Program-made: the position numbers and the translations under genes | The notes under the pieces: model-generated | What the model was told of the DNA's origin: nothing | Seen by the model: the letters and a program-made list of their open reading frames with translations, nothing else | Databases searched by the model: none | Shown here: in pieces, positions 5,732 to 43,733 of the stretch | How positions within the stretch are numbered: position 1 is the first letter of the stretch | How the letters are laid out: each line of letters starts with the position of its first letter | NCBI GenBank assembly: GCA_023248955.1 | Contig: JAHFDP010000006.1 | Location: forward strand, 15,825 to 79,824 | DNA: 64,000 nt | DNA from: Deltaproteobacteria bacterium | GTDB taxonomy: Bacteria; Myxococcota; Myxococcia; Myxococcales; JAHFDP01 | Direction: 5' to 3'

Positions 5732-7105
5732 TTATTCCGCTTCGTCGTCGTCGCCTTCATTGTTTATTTTCTTCCAGCGGTGCCGGAATTGCCGGAACGT
5801 AATTCCAAGTAACGCGGCGGCATCCTTCTTGACCCCTTTGGCGCGATCGAGTGCGGCGAGCAGATAACCGCGTTCGATTTCGCCCAGCCGAGCTTCGAGA
5901 TCGAAATGCTCGCTGAGCTCCAACACGGGACTGGTCGATGGCCGCAATGGGCCCGGGAGTGCAGCGGCGCCGATCTCGTCGCCTTCGGCGAGTGTCACGG
6001 CGCGTTCGATCAAGTTTTCCAGCTCGCGGACGTTCCCTGGAAACGCGTACGCGTCGAGCCGCTGACGGGCTTCGGCGGTGAGCCGCATCGGTGAACGGCC
6101 AAGCTGCGCGCAGGTTCGGACAATGAAATGTTGCGCCAACAACGGCACGTCCTCGGGACGCGCGCGCAGTGGCGGGACGTGAATGCGCACGACGTCGAGC
6201 CTGTAGAAAAGATCTTCGCGGAAGCGGCCGGCCTTGACGTCGGCGGCGAGATCACGGTTGGTGGCGGCGATGATGCGCACATCCACCTCGACGTCTTTAG
6301 TAGCTCCGACGGGGCGCACGCGCTTTTCCTGAATGGCGCGCAAGAGTGACACCTGCGAGGTCAACGGGAGTTCGCCGATTTCGTCGAGGAAGAGCGTTCC
6401 ACCATTCGCGGCGCCGAAGACGCCGGGTTTGGCTTCCTTGGCATCGGTGAAGGCGCCTTTCAAGTGGCCGAAGAGTTCGCTCTCGATCAGGTTCGCGGGA
6501 ATCGCTCCGCAGTTCACCGGCACGAAGGGACCGGTCTTGCGACTCTGCGCGTGAATGGCGCGCGCCACCAGCTCTTTGCCAGTCCCGCTCTCGCCGGTGA
6601 TGAGCACGGTGGTCCGCGTCGGCGCCACTTTGTCGACCAGCTGGTAGACCGCGCGCATTGCCGCCGACTTGCCGATGATGCCGTCCGGGTGTTGCGCGGC
6701 GAGCTTCGAGCGGAGCAGCACGTTCTCGAGCACCAGCGCGCGTTTCTCCAACGCTTTCTGCACCACGACGTTCAGCTCGTCGACCTTGAACGGCTTGATC
6801 AGATAGTCGTGCGCGCCGGCCTTCATGGCCTGCACGGCGTTTTCCGTCGTGGCAAACGCGGTGATGACGATGACTTCCGTTTGTGGATCTTTTTCTTTTA
6901 CCCGCGACAACACCGCGAGACCGTCGGGGCGACCGGCGCCCAGGTTGATGTCGGTGATGGTGAGATCAAATCGCTCGCGTTCCAGCAACGTGAACGCCGC
7001 CTCCGCATGGAGTGCCACGGTAACTTCGTGACCACTTTTGTGCAGCAAAATGTCCAGGAACTCGCGCATCGAGCGCTCGTCGTCGACGATCAGAATGCGC
7101 GCCAT
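5732..7105 (-). CDS. pilR: Sigma-54-dependent response regulator, PilR-like
   Basis: This 457-aa protein has NtrC architecture. The receiver domain (1-115) has the acidic pair DDE near the start, the phospho-acceptor Asp in LTITDINLG and Lys in YLIKPF. The AAA+ domain (about 140-380) has Walker A GESGTGKE and the sigma-54-contacting GAFTDA loop. A Fis-type HTH (KKDAAALLGITFRQFRHRWKK) ends the protein. Its ATG overlaps the stop of the adjacent histidine kinase by one base (TAATG), so the pair is translationally coupled. Placement directly downstream of pilB-pilT-pilC indicates PilR, which in relatives activates pilA transcription; pilA is not in this window. Confidence 0.9.
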   Translation of the reverse strand: MARILIVDDERSMREFLDILLHKSGHEVTVALHAEAAFTLLERERFDLTITDINLGAGRPDGLAVLSRVKEKDPQTEVIVITAFATTENAVQAMKAGAHDYLIKPFKVDELNVVVQKALEKRALVLENVLLRSKLAAQHPDGIIGKSAAMRAVYQLVDKVAPTRTTVLITGESGTGKELVARAIHAQSRKTGPFVPVNCGAIPANLIESELFGHLKGAFTDAKEAKPGVFGAANGGTLFLDEIGELPLTSQVSLLRAIQEKRVRPVGATKDVEVDVRIIAATNRDLAADVKAGRFREDLFYRLDVVRIHVPPLRARPEDVPLLAQHFIVRTCAQLGRSPMRLTAEARQRLDAYAFPGNVRELENLIERAVTLAEGDEIGAAALPGPLRPSTSPVLELSEHFDLEARLGEIERGYLLAALDRAKGVKKDAAALLGITFRQFRHRWKKINNEGDDDEAE

Positions 7106-8802
7106 TACGAAGCCTGCGTCAGCCGCGTGTTCTTGAGCGGCAGCTTGATCGAAAACCGACTTCCGCGGCCGCGCTCGCTCTGAACTTCCACACGGCCGCC
7201 GAGACCATCCACGATGCGGTGCACCGTCGCCAAGCCGAGACCCGTTCCGGCCGGCTTGGTGGTGAAAAACGGCTCGAAGAGGTGCGGCATGTCACTTGAC
7301 AAAATGCCTTCACCTTCATCTTCCACCTGCACCACCGCGTAGGGGCCCTGCGCAAAGGCGCGCACCGTGGCGGCGCCGCCGTTGGGCATCGCCTGCACCG
7401 CGTTGACGAGCAGATTCCAGAGCACCTGGCGTAGCTGATCCGCATCGGCGCGCACCACAACGAAACGATCCACCAGCGGCCGCAGCGTTGCTTTTCCAGC
7501 GGTGGGCGCGTTGGCAAACACGCCAAGGGTTTCCTCTACAAGCGATCCCAGGTCAACTTCCGAGAGTTGCGGCGACGCGGGCCGCGCGAAGGCGAGAAAA
7601 TCGGTCACCAACGCGTTGAGGCGTTCGCCTTCACGCATCACGATGTCGAACAGGCGATTGTTGTCGGGAGAAAGTTGCAGACCACTTCGCAACAGCTCCA
7701 CCGATCCGCACATCGACGCCAGCGGATTGCGAATTTCGTGCGCGAGACCGGCCGCGAGCCGCCCGGCTGCGGCAAGTCCCTCCGCGCGGCGGACGGCTTC
7801 CTCCATGCGCCGAAGCGTCGTGAGATCTTCGAGCATGATGGCGGTGCCGCGTGCCGGCGCCGTAAGCGGTGAAACGAAAAAGGCAACCGGCTGCGTGCCC
7901 CCGCGTAAGGTCGCTTCACCGTGCGCTTTCCCCGCGGCAGCAGCCGCCGCACACGCCGCCGAGAGAAGCGGAAACGTGGCCACCAGATCGCGCCCGCTGA
8001 TTTCTTCCGTCTGCGCACCGGCCATCTGCAAAGCGGCGGGATTCATGAAGGTGATTTTTCCGTCGGCGTCAGTGGTCAAAATCCCAGAGTGAATCGACTG
8101 CACGATCGATCCGTGCAACGCAGAGAGTTCGGCGAGGTCGGCTTGCGATTCGGTGAGCTGTTCACCCGCGCGCTGCACCTGCTCCGCGAGATAGCTCGAC
8201 AATCCAGCGGTGAGGACAAACGCCGATCCGTTGACAAAAAGGCCGAGCACGAAGCGCGGAAGTGGGACTGATTCAGGCGCAAGGTAAGACGCCGCCGGCG
8301 GCATGATGCCGGTGCGCAATCCAACCGCCACCACCGCGAACGTCGCCGCACTGGCAATCGCCGAGCTGACCGCACCGCTTCGGGGCAACACGATCGACGC
8401 GTTCACGATGGCCAGCGGATAAAAAATCGTGAAGAGCGATTCCGATCCGCCGGTCAAATAGACGAGAAACGAAGCGATGCACACATCGCCAGCAACCTGC
8501 CAGAAAGCCAGTGAATCGAGGCGGCGCCAGCGTTTGAGCGCCACAATGTAGCCGAGCGACAACGCATAAATGCCGCCGATGAGCCCGTAGAGCAGACCGG
8601 GAACGGTGCTGATGAGCGGCTCGGGCCGGCCCCCTAGACCAATGGTGGCAAGCAGGAGCGCGGTGACGGTGAGAAGACGAAACGCGGTAAGCCAGACGAG
8701 TTTCCGATAGAGGGCGTCGTCTGAGTAGGGGACCCGTCCCCCACCGCCATCCGGGGTTCGATAGCCGGGCGGACTGGCTCCGCCCCCTGGCTTACTTCTC
8801 AA
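7105..8802 (-). CDS. pilS: Membrane sensor histidine kinase, PilS-like
   Basis: This 565-aa protein has about six N-terminal transmembrane helices (residues about 35-215), a coiled linker, a PAS-like domain (GILTTDADGKITFMNPAALQMAG) and a HisKA-HATPase core. The H-box is AGLAHEIRNPLASM, with ATP-lid boxes (LWNLLVNAVQAM, DEGEGI, GTGLGLATVHRIV). It is the cognate kinase for the downstream pilR. The frame begins with TTG overlapping the pilC stop (TTGA). The first 25 or so residues (GGGASPP...TPDGGGGRVP) are encoded by a repeat also found inside ribF, so the native start may be further in. Confidence 0.88.
   Translation of the reverse strand: MRSKPGGGASPPGYRTPDGGGGRVPYSDDALYRKLVWLTAFRLLTVTALLLATIGLGGRPEPLISTVPGLLYGLIGGIYALSLGYIVALKRWRRLDSLAFWQVAGDVCIASFLVYLTGGSESLFTIFYPLAIVNASIVLPRSGAVSSAIASAATFAVVAVGLRTGIMPPAASYLAPESVPLPRFVLGLFVNGSAFVLTAGLSSYLAEQVQRAGEQLTESQADLAELSALHGSIVQSIHSGILTTDADGKITFMNPAALQMAGAQTEEISGRDLVATFPLLSAACAAAAAAGKAHGEATLRGGTQPVAFFVSPLTAPARGTAIMLEDLTTLRRMEEAVRRAEGLAAAGRLAAGLAHEIRNPLASMCGSVELLRSGLQLSPDNNRLFDIVMREGERLNALVTDFLAFARPASPQLSEVDLGSLVEETLGVFANAPTAGKATLRPLVDRFVVVRADADQLRQVLWNLLVNAVQAMPNGGAATVRAFAQGPYAVVQVEDEGEGILSSDMPHLFEPFFTTKPAGTGLGLATVHRIVDGLGGRVEVQSERGRGSRFSIKLPLKNTRLTQAS
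8717..8793 (-). repeat. GC-rich repeat inside the 5' end of pilS (same family as in ribF)
   Basis: Read on the minus strand this stretch runs GCCAGGGGGCGGAGCCAG ... TGGCGGTGGGGGACGGG ... TCAGACGAC. The same order of blocks occurs on the plus strand at 13143-13254 (GCCAGGGGGAGGAGCCAG ... TGGCGGAGGGGGATGGG ... CAGAATCCGAC). The shared blocks and spacing show a dispersed repeat family. Here it encodes a Gly/Pro-rich N-terminus for PilS and includes the TTG start region. Confidence 0.7.
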
Positions 8803-32800: not shown

Positions 32801-33940
32801 ATGACAAAACTGGCGCTGGTCACAGGTGGAGCGGGTTTCGTCGGTTCGCATCTGGTGGACGCGCTCGTCGCAGAGGGAACGAACGTGCGGGTGCTCGACA
32901 ACCTCCTTTTGCAGGCTCATCCGACCGGCAAGGCTCGGTTTCTTTCACCTGGTGCCGAATTGCTGATCGGAGATCTTCGCGATCGACCAACCGTGGACCG
33001 CGCGCTGGCTGGCGCCGAGCTGGTGTTTCACCTCGGTGGGCTCGTTGGCAATGGTCAATCGATGTACGACGTCCAACGCTACGTGGACCACAATTCGGTC
33101 GGCACCGCCGTGCTGATCGAGGCCATGCTGGCGCGGCGTGTGCAGTTTTCGCGTCTGGTTGTCGCCTCGTCGATGGTGGTCTACGGCGACGGTGCTTACG
33201 ACTGCATCGAGCACGGACGCGCACACCGTGTGCGGCGACCCATAGAGAGACTCTCGCAATCCATCTGGGAGCCGCTTTGTTCCCGCTGCGATCGCACGGT
33301 GACGCCCACCGCGACTTCCGAGGAGCATCCGCTCGCGCCCACAAGCACCTACGCCATCTCGAAACGCGACCAGGAAGAACTCGCGCTGGTGCTCGGACGT
33401 ACGCACGATCTGCCGACAGTCGCGCTGCGTTTTCTCAACGTGTATGGATCGCGCCAAGCGCTTGGCAATCCCTACACGGGCGTGGCCGCGGTCATCGCCA
33501 ACCGCATTCTGCACGGCAAGGCGCCGATCATCTTCGAAGATGGAGCGCAGCGTCGCGATTTCACCCACGTCTCGGATGTGGTCGCTGCAAATCTTCTGGC
33601 CGCGCGCGCTCCAGCCGAGGCACACTATGAGGCGTTCAATGTGGGAACGGGGCGCTCGGTCACCATTCTCGACCTTGCACAACGCATCGCAACCGGGCTC
33701 GGACGCACCCAAAAGGTTGTTCCGAGCGGCGGTTTTCGCGCCGGAGATATTCGCCACTGCTTCGCCGACGTGAAAAAGGCCCAGCGGCTCCTTGGGTTCA
33801 CTGCAAAGACAACACTGGAGCAGGGAATGAGCGAACTTCTGGGCTGGGCGACCGGTGAACGGACCGAGGACAAAAGCGATGAGGCCACCGCCGAGTTGGC
33901 ACAACGTAAGCTCATTCGCTGGGTCGGAGAGCAGCGTTGA
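32801..33940 (+). CDS. NAD-dependent sugar epimerase/dehydratase (extended SDR)
   Basis: This 379-aa protein has the Rossmann motif TGGAGFVGSHLVDAL (GxxGxxG), VLDNLL for the adenine ribose, and the active-site YAISKRDQE (YxxxK) with an upstream Ser (VVASSMVVYG). Such enzymes remodel NDP-sugars. An insertion around residues 145-175 has Cys pair LCSRCD, unusual for the family. In this cluster it may prepare or alter the sugar of the final product. AGGAGC precedes the ATG, and the stop overlaps the next gene's TTG (TTGA). Confidence 0.85.
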   Translation: MTKLALVTGGAGFVGSHLVDALVAEGTNVRVLDNLLLQAHPTGKARFLSPGAELLIGDLRDRPTVDRALAGAELVFHLGGLVGNGQSMYDVQRYVDHNSVGTAVLIEAMLARRVQFSRLVVASSMVVYGDGAYDCIEHGRAHRVRRPIERLSQSIWEPLCSRCDRTVTPTATSEEHPLAPTSTYAISKRDQEELALVLGRTHDLPTVALRFLNVYGSRQALGNPYTGVAAVIANRILHGKAPIIFEDGAQRRDFTHVSDVVAANLLAARAPAEAHYEAFNVGTGRSVTILDLAQRIATGLGRTQKVVPSGGFRAGDIRHCFADVKKAQRLLGFTAKTTLEQGMSELLGWATGERTEDKSDEATAELAQRKLIRWVGEQR

Positions 33941-34614
33941 CCTGCATCGGCGTGATGGCGCGTGCTCCGCTGCCCGGGCGCTGCAAGACGCGCCTAGCGC
34001 GAACGTTAGGGGATGCACAAGCCGCGAATCTCTACAAAGCCATGTTTCTCGACACGCTGGACGCCCTAGGCGTGGTGGGCGCAACACGGCAAGTCGTTCT
34101 CGCCGCTCCCGAAGACGACGGCGTAGCGGTGCTGCGCACGATGGTCCCCAAAAACTGGGAAGTCATCGCCCAGCACGGCACCGATCTGGGCGAGCGGCTG
34201 CGCAACGGATTTTCCGATCTCGCCCCTGAGGGACCGGTGGTCCTCGTCGACAGCGATTCGCCAACGCTGCCGATCGCGCCGCTTGCCGAGGCGCTTAGCC
34301 GCTTTTGGAATTCCCACAACGTGCTCCTGGGCCCCTGTGACGACGGTGGGTATTACCTCATCGGTCTCACCTCGATTCGGTCCGGCGAGCTCGGGGTTCT
34401 TTCAGATATTCCCTGGAGCACGAGCGGTGTACTGGCGGCGACACGAAAGCGATGCCACGAGCTTCGCCTCGACGTGACCGAGCTTCCGGTCTGGTACGAC
34501 GTCGATGACGCGGCATCGTTGGCGCGCTTTTCTGCCGAACTATCCGCAACTCCCGAGAGAGCGGCACGCTGCACGGCGGTCTTGGCCGCTCGGAGTGAAA
34601 CGTGGACAGCCTGA
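33937..34614 (+). CDS. DUF2064 transferase, 'rSAM/selenodomain-associated transferase 1' type (TIGR04282)
   Basis: The product is 225 aa. The cofC/nucleotidyltransferase-like fold has MARAPLPGRCKTRLARTLG at the N-terminus, VVLVDSDSPTLP and GPCDDGGYYLIGLT in the core, and IPWSTSGVL near the end. This family was named because it co-occurs with a radical SAM enzyme, a second transferase and a phosphorylase in clusters that often contain a selenocysteine protein. All those partners are present here. Its exact reaction is not established. The TTG start overlaps the epimerase stop. Confidence 0.85.
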   Translation: MTCIGVMARAPLPGRCKTRLARTLGDAQAANLYKAMFLDTLDALGVVGATRQVVLAAPEDDGVAVLRTMVPKNWEVIAQHGTDLGERLRNGFSDLAPEGPVVLVDSDSPTLPIAPLAEALSRFWNSHNVLLGPCDDGGYYLIGLTSIRSGELGVLSDIPWSTSGVLAATRKRCHELRLDVTELPVWYDVDDAASLARFSAELSATPERAARCTAVLAARSETWTA

Positions 34615-35315
34615 CCTTCGCCATCATTCCGGCGCTCAACGAGGAGGAAAACGTCGAAGCAGTCATCCGCGGAATCGGCCCCGCCGTGGATCGTGTGGTG
34701 CTGGTGGACAACGGCAGCAGTGACCAGACCGCCGCGCGCGCGCAGAAGGCGGGTGCCGACGTGGTGAGCGCACCGGAACGTGGCTACGGCGCCGCCTGCT
34801 TCGCGGGAATCGCGCACAGCAAAGCGCTGGGCGCGGACTACCTGCTCTTGTTGGATGCGGACGGGAGCGACGATCCGGCCGACGCGCCAAGGCTCCTTGC
34901 GGCTGTGCGCAACGGAAACGCGGATCTCGCTTTGGGCACACGGACCCGCGCGCTCTGCGAAAAGGGCGCGATGACCTTCACGCAACGCTGGGGAAACTGG
35001 CTCGCCCCGCGGCTCATGCGCCTCGCCACCGGCGCCCGCTGTTCCGATCTTCCACCGTTCAAGGCGATCCGCGCCAGCGCACTCGACAAGCTTTTGCTCA
35101 CCGAACGGGGCCATGGGTTCACCATCGAGCTGCTCTTCGAAGCGCACGCGCGCGGGCTCAAAGTGGTCGAGCTACCTGTGCGCTGCAGAGTGCGTCGCGG
35201 CGGCAAGTCGAAGGTCTCGGGAACACTCTGGGGAACGCTACAGGCGAGCGCTAGGATCATTGCAATCATTGGCCGACGGCGGCTGAAAAAGAGAGAAACG
35301 CATGACACTGGTTAG
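34602..35315 (+). CDS. Family-2 glycosyltransferase (selenodomain-associated transferase 2 / UGP-like)
   Basis: This 237-aa GT-A protein has the motifs FAIIPALNEEENVEAVI, VVLVDNGSSD, GYGAACFAGI and the metal-binding DADGSDDP. It lacks transmembrane helices. It overlaps the transferase-1 gene by 13 bp. It may add a sugar or glycerol-type group to the 5-deoxyribose intermediate released by the phosphorylase, by analogy with arsenosugar clusters. Its last codons (HDTG, TAG) abut repeat copy B, so the native C-terminus may have been trimmed. Confidence 0.8.
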   Translation: MDSLTFAIIPALNEEENVEAVIRGIGPAVDRVVLVDNGSSDQTAARAQKAGADVVSAPERGYGAACFAGIAHSKALGADYLLLLDADGSDDPADAPRLLAAVRNGNADLALGTRTRALCEKGAMTFTQRWGNWLAPRLMRLATGARCSDLPPFKAIRASALDKLLLTERGHGFTIELLFEAHARGLKVVELPVRCRVRRGGKSKVSGTLWGTLQASARIIAIIGRRRLKKRETHDTG

Positions 35316-35494
35316 CAAGTTCGCATGATAATTCCGGACGCCAAAGGCGGCCGCGGCGCGGAGTCGCGCCGAAGCCAGGAGGGGTCCCCGGCGAGCTTTG
35401 CTCGACGGGGAGGGGCGGCGAGCCCCTTCCAGATGGCCAGTGTCCCGAAACGACCGCCGCATTTATGCGGCGAACTTTTGTTCCGGGACACTAG
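35313..35494 (-). repeat. MITE-like palindromic element, copy B
   Basis: Same orientation as copy A. It contains AAGTTCGCATGATAATTCC at the left, the shared core (GACGCCAAAGGCGGCCGCGG, GGGGTCCCC) and the right end GCGAACTTTTGTTCCGGGAC then ACTAG. The left terminus is degraded compared with A and D. It provides the stop of the upstream transferase and lies over the start of the phosphorylase gene. Confidence 0.85.
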
Positions 35495-36356
35495 GGTTGG
35501 AATCATCGGCGGCACCGGATTGGAATCGGCGCTAGGTGCGCTTGCCGAGGGCCGTTCGCATGAGCTGTCGACGCCGTTTGGGCGACCATCTGGGCCGATA
35601 GTCACCGGCGAGGTCGAGGGCGTTCCCGTAGCCTTGCTCGCCCGACACGGACCCGGCCATCTTTTGAACCCCTCCCAAGTTCCCTACCGCGCGAACATCT
35701 TCGCCATGAAGATGCTCGGCGTTACGCACCTGCTCGCCACAGGGGCCGTAGGCAGTCTGCGAGAAAAAATCAGACCAGGCGAACTGCTGATCCCCGATCA
35801 GGTGATCGACCGAACCTTTCGCCGCGCGACGACCTTTTTCGATGATCTGGCCGTGCATGTTGAGCTGGCCTCCCCGTTTTGTCCCACGCTGCGGGCTGCG
35901 CTCATTGAAGTCGGCAAGAAAAGCAGGGTCCCTGTTCATCGCGACGGAACCTATCTGGCAATGGAGGGACCGCAGTTTTCCACCCGCGCAGAGAGCGAGC
36001 TGCACCGTGCCTGGGGTGCCGATCTGGTGGGCATGACCGCAATGCCCGAAGCGAAGTTGGCCCGGGAGGCGGAACTCTGTTACGCGATGGTAGCGCTGGT
36101 CACCGATTATGACTGTTGGCGCCCGCCGCGAGCTGCGATCGAGCAGCAGGAGCTCTTGCGAGAAATTATCGGCAACCTCGAGCGAGCAAGCGCCAACGCT
36201 ATTGCCTTAATACGTAAGACACTGAGGAAACTTGCAGCAACCGCGCGCCAGCCATGCCGTTGCCAATCGGCGTTAACACTCGGTATCTGGTCGGACCGGG
36301 AGCGCATCTCGCAAGAAACGCGCGATCGACTCGGTCCACTCTTGGCGCGGCACTAG
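35478..36356 (+). CDS. 5'-methylthioadenosine phosphorylase-like enzyme (PNP family)
   Basis: The product is 292 aa from the TTG at 35478. The body has VGIIGGTGLESA, the phosphate and ribose sites (LLARHGPGH), the signature YLAMEGPQFSTRAESELHR and VTDYDCW. The last motif has the two Asp that mark MTA rather than purine nucleosides. It cleaves 5'-substituted adenosines to adenine and a ribose-1-phosphate. In arsenosugar-type pathways an enzyme of this kind would act on the 5'-arsino-adenosine. The native start is missing: all in-frame starts (35325, 35433, 35478) lie within copy B, and the stop TAG is within the CTAG end of copy C. Confidence 0.88.
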   Translation: MFRDTRVGIIGGTGLESALGALAEGRSHELSTPFGRPSGPIVTGEVEGVPVALLARHGPGHLLNPSQVPYRANIFAMKMLGVTHLLATGAVGSLREKIRPGELLIPDQVIDRTFRRATTFFDDLAVHVELASPFCPTLRAALIEVGKKSRVPVHRDGTYLAMEGPQFSTRAESELHRAWGADLVGMTAMPEAKLAREAELCYAMVALVTDYDCWRPPRAAIEQQELLREIIGNLERASANAIALIRKTLRKLAATARQPCRCQSALTLGIWSDRERISQETRDRLGPLLARH

Positions 36357-36549
36357 TGTCCTGTTCTAGAAGTTCGCCGCATAAATGCGGCGGTCGTTTT
36401 GGGGACACTAGCCGTCTGGAAGGGGCTCGCCGCCCCTCCCCGCCGGGCGAAGCCCATCGGGGACCCCACCTAAGCTTCGGCGAGACTCCTCGCCGCGGCC
36501 GCCTTTGGCGTCCGGAATTATCAAACTGACTTTTGGGACAGGACACTAG
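36353..36549 (+). repeat. MITE-like palindromic element, copy C
   Basis: Opposite orientation to copy B. It begins CTAGTGTCC...AGAAGTTCGCCGCATAAATGCGG and ends ...GGAATTATCAAACTG...GGACACTAG. The core is the reverse complement of copies A and B. Its first bases form the stop codon of the phosphorylase gene. It ends 10 bp before the hairpin that follows the radical SAM gene. Confidence 0.85.
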
Positions 36550-36583: not shown

Positions 36584-37504
36584 CTAGCCTCACCGAAAGG
36601 GCTGCAGGGGAGATGCGGTCCGCGCGAGGCTGATCCGCGTCACCTCCTCCAGCGCGCGTTTGAGCGATCCCGTGTCGGCGGAAACGAGCAGATCCGAATC
36701 CGTTCCCGCCGGATGCCAGAAAATTCCGCTGGCATCGACCGTGAGCTCCGGAACGAGATCGGCCTTACCGACGGCCATTCCCTCCTCCGAAAAACCGCGC
36801 CGTAAGAGCGGGCGAACGATGTGGTCCGCCTCGCCTATCTGAAGCCGATCGCGGACAAAGCGACGCAGCGCGACCACTTTGGGCGCTAATTCCGGCGTCA
36901 CCGTGCTGGCGACGCGCAGCTGAAAACCCGCCGCGCGAAGCGCATCCATGGCGTCAACGGTACGCTGCCACGTTCCCTCACCGCGGTACTTGTCATGTAG
37001 ACCAGGTTGGTCATCGTCGACCGAGACTTGAATAAAAAGATTGGCGTGGTTGACCGCCAAGAGCTTTTCCAGCCGGCGCCCGCGCGCAAGCAGCGCATTG
37101 GTCAAGAGCGTGGTTCGCACGTGGGGTGTTGCAAGGCTAATCATCTCGAAAATCTCATCGAGCAGAAGCGGCTCGCCGCCCGTCAGAAAAAGCTCGCGAA
37201 CGCCCAGCTGGCGCGCTTCGTTGAAGAGCGTGCGAAACCGATCGAGCCCCAACGCACGCCGCTCGGCATAGGGATTAGACGAGACCAGACAGTAGGCACA
37301 CTGCAGATTGCAGTCGTAGTTGGTGTAGATCCAGAGGCGCGCGGGGAGTTCTATCGAGAGATGGGCACTGTCCGATTTGTCCACCCAGCGAGCGCAGGCG
37401 GCGCAGTAACGGCCTAGCCGCAGCCAACTTCCGTCATCAAACGCGCGCATGGCGTTCTCGTCGGAGCCAACGGCAGGAACCTCGCTTTGGGGTGAATCGG
37501 TCAT
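36584..37504 (-). CDS. Radical SAM enzyme, probably ending in Sec-Gly
   Basis: The product is 304 aa up to the UGA and 306 aa if it is read as selenocysteine (Sec305-Gly306-UAG). The N-terminal part has a CAAC pair (about residues 34-37), then the [4Fe-4S]-AdoMet motif CNLQCAYC (CX3CX2C, about residue 65). The barrel motifs ELFLTGGEPLLL and TLLTNALL and strand FIQVSVDDD follow. It is not a clear ArsS: its cluster motif and C-terminus differ from the TIGR04167 pattern as I know it. Given the ArsM-like, phosphorylase and transferase-1/2 neighbours, it may attach a 5'-deoxyadenosyl or similar group to methylated arsenic. It lies 4 bp after the methyltransferase gene, so the two are coupled. A SECIS-like hairpin follows the UGA. 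Confidence 0.8.
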
Positions 37505-37508
37505 CGAA

Positions 37509-39023
37509 TCAATCGCGCGTGGCGCTCCAGAGGTTTTGGCCGGTTGCCTGCTGTACGTTAGAAAATCCCGCCGCGACGATCAACGTGCGAAGCTCATCGG
37601 CGGTGAGCAGCCCAGCCTGTTCTGTAATCCATAGACCGGGCTGCGAGCGGACGAGCCAGGGTTTGACGACTTGTGTTACCGCGTCCGCAATAACCAGACG
37701 GCCTCCTTTCCGCAGCACGCGCCACATTTCACGCAGCACTCTGCCCTTGTCCACGCAGCAGAGATTCACCACCCCATTGGCCATCACCACATCGGCGCTT
37801 CCGTCTTCTGTCGGGAGCTGTTCCGCATAACCCTTGAGAAATTTGAGCTGGGACAACCGGCCCGCGACGTGCTGGGCTTTGCGCAAAAGCTCCTCGACCA
37901 TTTCGACGCCAAGCACTCTGCCGCTTTCGCCCACGGCCTTCGCCGCGAGCAACGCATCCAGCCCGCCGCCGCTTCCAACATCAACTACCCGTTCACCAGG
38001 CCGCAGCGCGCCTGCGTGCACAACATGCCCCATTCCAGCGCACAGGAGAACGGCCGCGCTGGGAACGCCCACCAGTTCCTCCTGCCGATAACCAAGCGCA
38101 CGCGCATGAGCCGGTCCCATCGGTAAAAGGTGCGTCCGACCCGGAAACAGCGCCACTTTCGCCATCTCCCGCTGCCAGGCCTGCTGCACCTTTCGCTCGT
38201 CGACGGCCGCTGCGCGACTTCCCACTTGGGCTGGGCGCGGACCGGGACGCGTGGCAAGTAGCAGCAGGGCTTGCGACTCCTTGGCTCCGGTGCGCGCATT
38301 CCTGCCCCGTTGCAACACCTCCACGGAATCGAACCCCCGCTCCCGCAAAAGGTCGAGTAGCGCTGCATCCAGCAGCGCGCCACCGATTCAACGAAACCAA
38401 TCCGAAAGCGAATGGCCCCGATCGGGAGGCAATGGCTCACGGAGTGCTATTTCTGCGAGGAGAAACCGTCCGCCGGGGCGCAGAATGCGAAACACCTCAT
38501 CCAGCACCTCTTCTTTGGCCGCGGAGAGATTGAGAATGCCGTTGGCGGTCACCCAGTCAGCACTGGCGTCGAGAAGACCCGTGTCGGAGACTAGCCTCTC
38601 CAGAATTTCGACGTGAGGCTGATCCATGAGCTTGACATTTTGACGAGCGCGCGCAGCCATCTCGGGCGCGAAATCCACCGCCACAACACGTCCTCGCGGC
38701 CCGGACATGAGACCAAGAATCAGCGCGTCCAGCCCGCCTCCGCAACCGAGATCCACCACGGTGTCACCGGGATGCACGTCGGCAAAAAGTGCGGGCGTCC
38801 CAACGCCGGTGAAGGCTTCCACCGCACCCGCCGGCAGCTGATTGAGGAGCGCCGCGGGATAGCCCAGCGCCTCGGCAAAGGGTCGGCCGACACGAAAGCC
38901 CCAATCCCCCGTTGGCTCGCGTGACACATCCGAATATCGCTGCTGAACTGCGCTTCGTAAATCGGCGCTGGACATTCCGGAAGGAGTGCTTTGCGAGCTG
39001 TCGACCATTGGGATTTCGACCAT
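37509..39023 (-). CDS. Tandem ArsM-like methyltransferase with in-frame UGA (candidate selenoprotein)
   Basis: Read through the UGA at 38390-38388 the protein is 504 aa with Sec at 212. Domain 1 (about 20-240) has the ArsM pattern: VDLGCGGGLDA AdoMet motif (90-100), ANGILNL (where ArsM has SNCVINL) and W-F-R-Sec-I-G-G-A-L, aligning Sec with the arsenite-binding Cys of W-x-x-C-x-x-G-A-L. Domain 2 (about 265-504) repeats the fold with VVDVGSGGGLDA (346-356), ANGVVNLCC and WITEQAGLL, lacking that Cys. Without read-through domain 1 would lose its last strands and domain 2 would start mid-fold. ATG 39023 is preferred because AAAGGTGA precedes it. It methylates arsenic or a related metalloid by inference. 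A perfect hairpin follows the UGA. Confidence 0.78.
38360..38378 (-). promoter_or_regulatory. Candidate SECIS hairpin in the ArsM-like gene
   Basis: On the minus strand GCGCTGC-TGGAT-GCAGCGC makes a perfect 7-bp stem and 5-nt loop containing G at its second position. The stem begins 9 nt and the loop 16 nt after the UGA. This fits bacterial SECIS rules (close stem, small G-containing apical loop, 16-37 nt to the loop). The sequence also encodes protein (GGALLDAAL), so it is under dual constraint. Confidence 0.7.
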
Positions 39024-39258
39024 CACGTCACCTTTCGAAGGCCATGTCGCGATGCTACCACCGCTGCCTGGCTCCACCTTGGAGACATTGAACGCGGGTG
39101 TACTATCAGCGTCGACGTTGAGATCCGTCACATCGTTGCCCCCGATAGTCCTCGGTCACTGCCGTTGTTGGTGACCTGGACACCCACGATAGCTCGTCCA
39201 ATCGTATCGGTCGCCAGTTGCACGTTCCAGGCAGGTCGAAATCCGCCGTCGCCCATCT

Positions 39259-39621
39259 TCATGATGCGCACCTTGGGATCTGTCGTGGAGACCCGGGTTC
39301 CGGGCTGCTTTTCCTCCGGCTTGACTGGCTGACGTTCCGATTGCCGCGCTGGGAAACGGCGCTGGCGCAGGCTGCAGTTTGCTGGGCAATCTGCTTGGCC
39401 GTATCGTACTTACCCTCAAGCGCGGTCCGAACATCGCGGTCGAAACGCACTTTGCTCGTCGCAATTTCACGAAGAGACAAAACGCACGGCTTGTTCTTGC
39501 TGGTCTCGATGATTGGCCGAGCACCCGCCATCAGCTGCCGCGTGCGCTTGGTCGCCAAAAGGACCAGCGCAAATCGGTTCGGAATGAGGGGCAGGCAACC
39601 TTCAACGGTTACGCGGGCCAT
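39259..39621 (-). CDS. rpoZ: RNA polymerase omega subunit
   Basis: The 120-aa product from ATG 39621 reads [20 protein letters not shown] then [10 protein letters not shown], the RpoZ signature. It continues with the conserved [19 protein letters not shown] segment and a long basic, Ser-rich tail not needed for the fold. It promotes polymerase assembly. The frame is open upstream to 39738 but the family start is clear. The 235-bp gap to the methyltransferase start (39024-39258) shows no gene and probably holds its promoter. Confidence 0.93.
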
Positions 39622-39658
39622 GGAGACTCTTAAAGGCCTTAGCGGTACACTCCCGGTC

Positions 39659-40138
39659 GTGAAGAGATTCGCCCTGGCGACCTGCCTGCTCGCAACTGCG
39701 TGCGAAAGCAAAATCGTGCAGCAGCAACCGTGCACCACCTGCCCAGACGTCTCGGGAACATACCAAGCTGACGACTACTCAAAAGCGGGCACAGGCGCGT
39801 GCCAGGCGTTTCAATTCGTGAGCTCGACGTTCCCATTTGCACTCACGCAAGTCGGAGGCAACCAGCTCAGCTTCGACAGCCCGTTCGCGCAAACAAAAGG
39901 TAGCGCCTTGGCGCGAATGTCCGGCACGCTGGCCTCGGACCTCTCCGCAAAGTTTCCCGCCGTTCCCGTCGCGGGCCCAACCGGCGCCCCGGTGATGGTG
40001 AGCTTTTCCGGAAAGTTTGGTGGCTCGTCCGGCAACCGAACATTCGACGGGAGCTACGTGGCCATCCAAGAAAATTGCACGTTCGAAGCGCCGCAACACT
40101 GGACGCAGGTCAACGAAACCGACGGCGGGATCCCATAG
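39659..40138 (+). CDS. Small secreted lipoprotein, unknown
   Basis: The product is 159 aa from GTG 39659, with lipoprotein signal [15 protein letters not shown]-like ([17 protein letters not shown], lipidation at the second Cys). The mature part begins with [17 protein letters not shown] and has a lipocalin-like strand pattern ([50 protein letters not shown]). I do not recognise a family. It diverges from rpoZ with a 37-bp gap. Confidence 0.65.
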
Positions 40139-43488: not shown

Positions 43489-43538
43489 ACGTATTATCCG
43501 TAGATGAATCTACATTTTTGTATGAACATGTCAATACG

Positions 43539-43733
43539 CTAGTGTCCCAGAATAGAAGTTCGCCGCATAAATGCGGCGGTCGTTTCGGGACACTAGCCGT
43601 CTTGAAGGGGCTCGCCGCCCCTCCCCGCCGGGCGAAGCCCATCGGGGACCCCTCCCTGCTCCGGCGAGACTCCTCGCCGCGGCCGCCTCTGGCGTCCCGA
43701 ATTATCATGCGAACTTCTGTTCCAGGAAACTAG
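43539..43733 (+). repeat. MITE-like palindromic element, copy D (most complete)
   Basis: This is a 195-bp element. Left end CTAGTGTCCCAGAATAG...AAGTTCGC and right end GCGAACTTCTGTTCC...GGAAACTAG are inverted repeats of about 25 bp. The left 58 bp is also self-complementary (CTAGTGTCCC with GGGACACTAG around CCGCATAAATGCGG). The middle holds GGGGACCCCTCC and GCGGCCGCC. There is no ORF with coding features. It sits 51 bp upstream of the antitoxin start and 10 bp from the TonB receptor gene's end. Confidence 0.88.

Follow-up and report, generated by a model that had tools for sequence, protein, structure and literature searches.

Reading through an in-frame UGA, we found a gene for two tandem ArsM-like methyltransferase domains, in which the UGA stands in place of an ArsM ligand cysteine and is very probably decoded in vivo as selenocysteine (Sec). 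Sec at this ArsM cysteine column is already known and is not new. New here are the tandem arrangement of the two domains, the occurrence of Sec without its Cys72 partner, and the gene neighbourhood. As an explanation of the whole, we consider it likely, judging from the aligned residues and the gene context, that the gene encodes a Sec methyltransferase for an arsenical substrate requiring few ligands, the product of which would be processed further. The term "window" is used for the entire stretch of DNA that was analysed (64,000 nucleotides). Features are given in Table 1.

A tandem methyltransferase gene with an in-frame UGA

The gene starts with an ATG at 39023 and ends with the TGA at 37511-37509, which corresponds to residue 505, yielding a predicted product of 504 residues with Sec at position 212. 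The internal TGA is codon 38390-38388 of the minus strand and, when read through, becomes the U in ...LSDWFR-U-IGGALLDAALLDLL..., followed by 292 open codons up to the terminal stop. Coordinates of the UGA and length of the open frame had been given correctly by the initial annotation; that these 292 codons hold a whole second methyltransferase domain had gone unremarked there. Cysteines of the read-through protein were found at positions 94, 328, 422 and 423 only.

Table 1. Features of the tandem methyltransferase locus (positions within the window).
Feature	Position	Strand	Evidence
Tandem ArsM-like methyltransferase, read-through ORF	37512..39023	-	two methyltransferase stretches (Pfam/NCBIfam scans)
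Domain 1, ArsM-like (residues 1-255)	38259..39023	-	NCBIfam and PDB matches, alignment
In-frame UGA, probable Sec (U212)	38388..38390	-	all homologues in the alignment have Cys or UGA here
SECIS-like hairpin, 7-bp stem, loop UGGAU	38360..38378	-	-13.2 kcal/mol; loop 16 nt past UGA
Domain 2, second ArsM-like methyltransferase (residues 272-504)	37512..38210	-	SAM motif present
Radical SAM protein	36590..37504	-	Rv1681-family relative (NF049973, below cutoff), not ArsS
S-methyl-5'-thioadenosine phosphorylase (MTAP)	35325..36356	+	TIGR01694, 295.5 bits (cutoff 274.85)
GT2-type glycosyltransferase	34602..35315	+	below TIGR04283 cutoff (43.5 bits, cutoff 182)
TIGR04282 "arsenosugar biosynthesis" glycosyltransferase	33937..34614	+	154.9 bits (cutoff 134)
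NAD-dependent sugar epimerase-like protein	32801..33940	+	ORF; family judged from sequence

The predicted structure matched ArsM structures, with a good model for domain 1 and a mixed one for domain 2, and the predicted structure of the whole tandem resembled two-domain phosphoethanolamine methyltransferases only loosely (rmsd about 19). No further tandem turned up in 195 genomes of the same phylum, in a pattern scan of contigs from 84,980 species, in plasmids or in viral contigs; among these sets the tandem form is known from one genome only. Two-piece matches on plasmids were rejected as tandems, since those inspected consisted of one domain matched twice.

Probable selenocysteine at position 212

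In an alignment of 45 sequences the column of the UGA was invariant, carrying either Cys or UGA and never an unrelated residue, and the position of UGA-212 is therefore non-random. Canonical ArsMs, like the nearest clade, had Cys at this column; six genes from the same order (L078-L083) and one further gene from the same phylum (L108) had UGA. We are aware of the fact that 56 contig loci were picked partly by their Cys-codon pattern, so that their uniform Cys is no independent evidence. The homologue searches within the same order and the same phylum read TGA through and are thus free of this selection bias. Alignment with CmArsM and CrArsM placed residue 212 on the Cys of the ECLGGAL motif (CmArsM Cys174), bearing out the earlier proposal that the UGA sits exactly at the ArsM cysteine, and placed a Val on Cys72. 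Mean identity to 31 clade members amounted to 49% past the UGA (residues 213-247) versus 42% before it (residues 21-211). Two of the features by which bacterial selenoproteins are recognised, a UGA at the Cys position of the homologues and a protein sequence kept 3' of it, were thus observed.

The nearest clade of domain 1 shows the motifs FTGAGNP and DWFRCIGGAL and comprises Planctomycetota, Omnitrophota and others, with up to ~47% identity. In the tree, domain 1 fell beside this Cys-type DWFRC clade (Planctomycetota, Omnitrophota); the other UGA group branched separately. The branch of domain 1 is long, so that the tree does not discriminate between independent gain and ancestral Sec.

The stem of the hairpin (GCGCTGC/GCAGCGC, loop TGGAT) begins exactly 9 nt past the UGA, in agreement with the initial annotation, which had described it at the same distance as matching bacterial SECIS geometry. 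The bacterial SECIS model allows a loop of 3-9 nt with a G in its first two positions and a stem of 4-16 bp, at a distance of 16-37 nt from the UGA and with an energy of at most -7.5 (PMC13188914). With a loop of 5 nt, a G at loop position 2, 7 bp, 16 nt and -13.2 kcal/mol, the hairpin lies within all of these limits. An Rfam scan of the window gave no match. The UGA-adjacent hairpin exceeds chance expectation: when the peptide was recoded synonymously 5,000 times, 1.3% of the versions had a model-fitting hairpin of equal stability, as did 1.7% of 3,386 in-frame positions in the ORFs of the window. All 8 distinct UGA genes possessed a hairpin of -10 to -13.6 kcal/mol with the loop 16-17 nt past the UGA. 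For the Cys homologues, a hairpin anywhere in the permitted range reached -10 kcal/mol or below in 1 of 74 cases and -7.5 or below in 6 of 74. Compared to the other UGA genes, the hairpin of the tandem gene showed a U-A to G-C double change with pairing kept. Such double changes occurred at two stem pairs, and 16 of 500 shuffles scored as high; given six rows and the coding constraint, this stem covariation is supportive, not proof.

The genome, which is 95.6% complete, contained selA, selB and selD as well as tRNA-Sec (selC) with the anticodon UCA, the full set that the initial annotation had proposed to look for. Taken together, the conserved column, the conserved downstream sequence, the SECIS hairpin in register with that of the other UGA genes and the complete sel machinery strongly support Sec at UGA-212, which had earlier been called probable. 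SelB and Sec-tRNA would read UGA-212 as Sec, with the hairpin immediately 3' as the signal. In further support, the selD of this genome (L017) contains a UGA in frame (HGAG-U-ACK), followed after 33 nt by a candidate hairpin, so that SelD is probably a selenoprotein itself.

Relation to known ArsM proteins

An arsenite methyltransferase (NF008823, UxxG, WP_011987699.1) is listed as an experimentally verified selenoprotein, with reference to Fomenko et al. (2007), in Table 1 of a 2026 review (PMC13188914). The review also lists three ArsM-fusion selenoproteins, and an earlier survey likewise names ArsM among the selenoprotein families. With the Sec arsenite methyltransferase (PRK11873/NF008823), the tandem protein shares the ArsM Cys column that Sec occupies, the following x-x-G and the single Sec per protein. 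It differs by its two tandem methyltransferase domains, which alone stay below the NF008823 cutoff of 263 (154 bits for domain 1, 159 for domain 2), the 309 bits of the whole protein being the sum of both domains. The best profiles for domain 1 alone were the ArsM fusions NF041537 (AhpD; 196 bits), NF041536 (DUF2284; 168 bits) and NF047649 (UXPK-star; 179 bits), which similarly combine UxxG in the ArsM domain with a C-terminal fusion. Unlike in those fusions, it is another, Sec-free ArsM-like domain that forms the C-terminal part here, and the whole protein with 346, 289 and 300 bits, respectively, scored far below the curated cutoffs of 510, 575 and 460. These three families of fusion selenoproteins reportedly go back to Haft and Tolstoy in 2025. 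The methyltransferase fold and the ECLGGAL-type ligand motif are common to CmArsM, CrArsM, human AS3MT and the tandem protein, which differs from them by Sec for Cys174/156, Val for Cys72/61 and the absence of any Cys after Sec in domain 1.

Metal(loid) ligands and substrate

From the ArsM inventory, a SAM methyltransferase fold, a SAM motif and an aligned residue at the Cys174/156 column were found. Lacking were the Cys72/61 ligand, replaced by Val in domain 1 and Met in domain 2, and the Cys224/206 ligand. Domain 1 thus presents the motif-I Cys94, a Val at the column of CmArsM Cys72, and Sec212; it has no Cys past residue 212 and so no ligand at the Cys224/206 position. In domain 2, Met occupies the Cys72 column and Glu the Cys174 column. 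According to PMC3877260, iAs(III) is bound by three Cys, MMA(III) by two and DMA(III) by one. Set against these needs, the Val at Cys72 and the lack of a Cys after Sec leave the name "arsenic(III) methyltransferase" not established. The earlier reading as a selenium-dependent arsenic methyltransferase therefore divides: its selenoprotein half is strongly supported, its arsenite half less well founded, with the Cys72 and Cys224 ligands missing. As judged from the residues aligned, "arsenite methyltransferase" is the less secure and "selenoprotein" the more secure description of the gene. Apart from the motif-I Cys, Sec is the only soft ligand, so that another soft metalloid or an arsenical already methylated would be at least as plausible a substrate.

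We propose that the selenolate of Sec212 takes the place of the As ligand Cys174/Cys156 in domain 1. There it would position a soft electrophile beside SAM for methyl transfer, and the most likely candidate is a trivalent arsenical. Since Val replaces Cys72 and no Cys follows Sec in domain 1, free arsenite may be a poorer substrate for it than MMA(III), DMA(III) or an alkylated arsenical, for which one or two soft ligands suffice. The second domain is probably a partner or an enzyme for another substrate: its SAM motif is retained, but the ligand columns are occupied by Glu and Met. By isolating Sec from its Cys72 and Cys224 partners, the tandem could reveal what a single selenolate does in metalloid methylation.

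Gene neighbourhood and alternative explanations

Downstream of the tandem gene, the radical SAM protein scored 41.7 bits with ArsS TIGR04167 (cutoff 300), and a search for ArsS across the genome gave none above the cutoff. On the opposite strand, the epimerase-like gene opens a run of sugar genes convergent to the tandem gene. The GT2 protein reached 43.5 bits with TIGR04283 (cutoff 182) and is not of that family. Homology to MTAP starts at about 35487, the first part of this ORF lying within a MITE-like repeat. Like the arsenosugar pathway (ArsM, ArsS TIGR04167, TIGR04282, TIGR04283), the locus brings together ArsM-like, radical SAM, TIGR04282 and GT2 proteins, and beside these arsenosugar-type genes it also has MTAP of the purine nucleoside phosphorylase family. 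It departs from that pathway by a radical SAM protein near NF049973 instead of ArsS and by a GT2 outside TIGR04283. The context of radical SAM, MTAP, TIGR04282 and GT2 suggests further processing towards an organoarsenical, and the methylated product might end in a possibly arsenosugar-like compound. A relative of the radical SAM protein (43%) was found in another genome of the order (L111), 3 kb from TIGR04282 and GT2. Conserved links in the neighbourhood are few, and the organoarsenical pathway is a lead. If the tandem gene is functional, its radical-SAM/TIGR04282/MTAP neighbourhood would tie selenium to organoarsenical biosynthesis and not to simple detoxification.

An ordinary Sec-ArsM for arsenic detoxification, with second domain and neighbours incidental, is possible but doubtful. 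Single-domain UGA homologues in related genomes, one of them (L121) beside an ArsR-like/rhodanese gene, are consistent with it, as is the fact that MTAP and the sugar genes run convergently on the opposite strand and are flanked by MITE-like repeats. Set against this, the start codon of the radical SAM gene lies 4 bp past the stop of the tandem gene, suggesting co-expression, and a UGA within the DWFR-x-IGGA clade was seen nowhere else in the genomes searched. Moreover, TIGR04282 keeps similar company elsewhere: within ~1.5 kb of 29 other loci in the phylum we found GT2 (7/29), ArsM-like (2), MTAP (1) and radical SAM (1) genes.

A selenoprotein methyltransferase with a non-arsenic substrate, whose Sec binds selenium, tellurium, mercury or antimony species or a thiol, appears unlikely. 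In this case the clade that has Ala or Val in place of Cys72 would differ from ArsM in function. The nearest clade and the separate UGA group indeed carry Ala or Val at this column, Cys94 and Cys/Sec212 are the only Cys/Sec positions conserved clade-wide, domain 1 stays below the NF008823 cutoff, and a search of the genome for Acr3 found none above the cutoff. The best-matching curated selenoprotein families and the TIGR04282 neighbour speak for arsenic, by names ("arsenite methyltransferase", "arsenosugar") that are annotations and not tests.

The preferred reading, a Sec methyltransferase for a few-ligand arsenical, can be extended to a complete scheme of selenium-dependent organoarsenical biosynthesis. 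The tandem Sec-methyltransferase would make a methylated arsenical and the non-ArsS radical SAM protein would couple this to an adenosyl group derived from SAM, with an MTAP-like phosphorolysis and a glycosylation as the next steps; taken jointly, these steps are a rather improbable guess drawn from the gene content. A true stop at the UGA, caused by a sequencing error or a recent nonsense mutation, would leave a fragment of 211 residues, with domain 2 perhaps started on its own. This reading would fit the use of UGA as normal stop in this genome, the single occurrence of the tandem and a TTG-started ORF (37509-38348) covering domain 2, but is highly improbable with the UGA on the one invariant Cys column, a hairpin in register with other UGA homologues, full sel machinery and an open, conserved frame beyond.

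Further observations at the locus and in related genomes

The MITE-like repeat of ~180-195 bp with CTAGTGTCC/GGACACTAG ends is present in three copies (35317-35497, 36353-36549, 43536-43733), about 84-96% alike. Two inverted copies bracket the MTAP gene, and the first ~55 codons of the MTAP ORF fall in one of them. Upstream of the tandem gene an rpoZ-like ORF (39259-39738, minus strand) is followed by an apparent transposase remnant at ~39160-39280, which suggests a putative rearrangement boundary.

In L111 (3394-6475), the radical SAM relative directly follows genes for a phosphonate-type substrate-binding protein and an acyl-CoA dehydrogenase-like protein. Another related genome (L119, 6024-10215) combines a 63% identical MTAP, a Cys-type ArsM and a radical SAM/SPASM gene within 4.2 kb. 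In L121 (~7000-8670), the single-domain UGA ArsM-like gene is divergent from a gene that reads as an ArsR-like regulator with a rhodanese-like domain.
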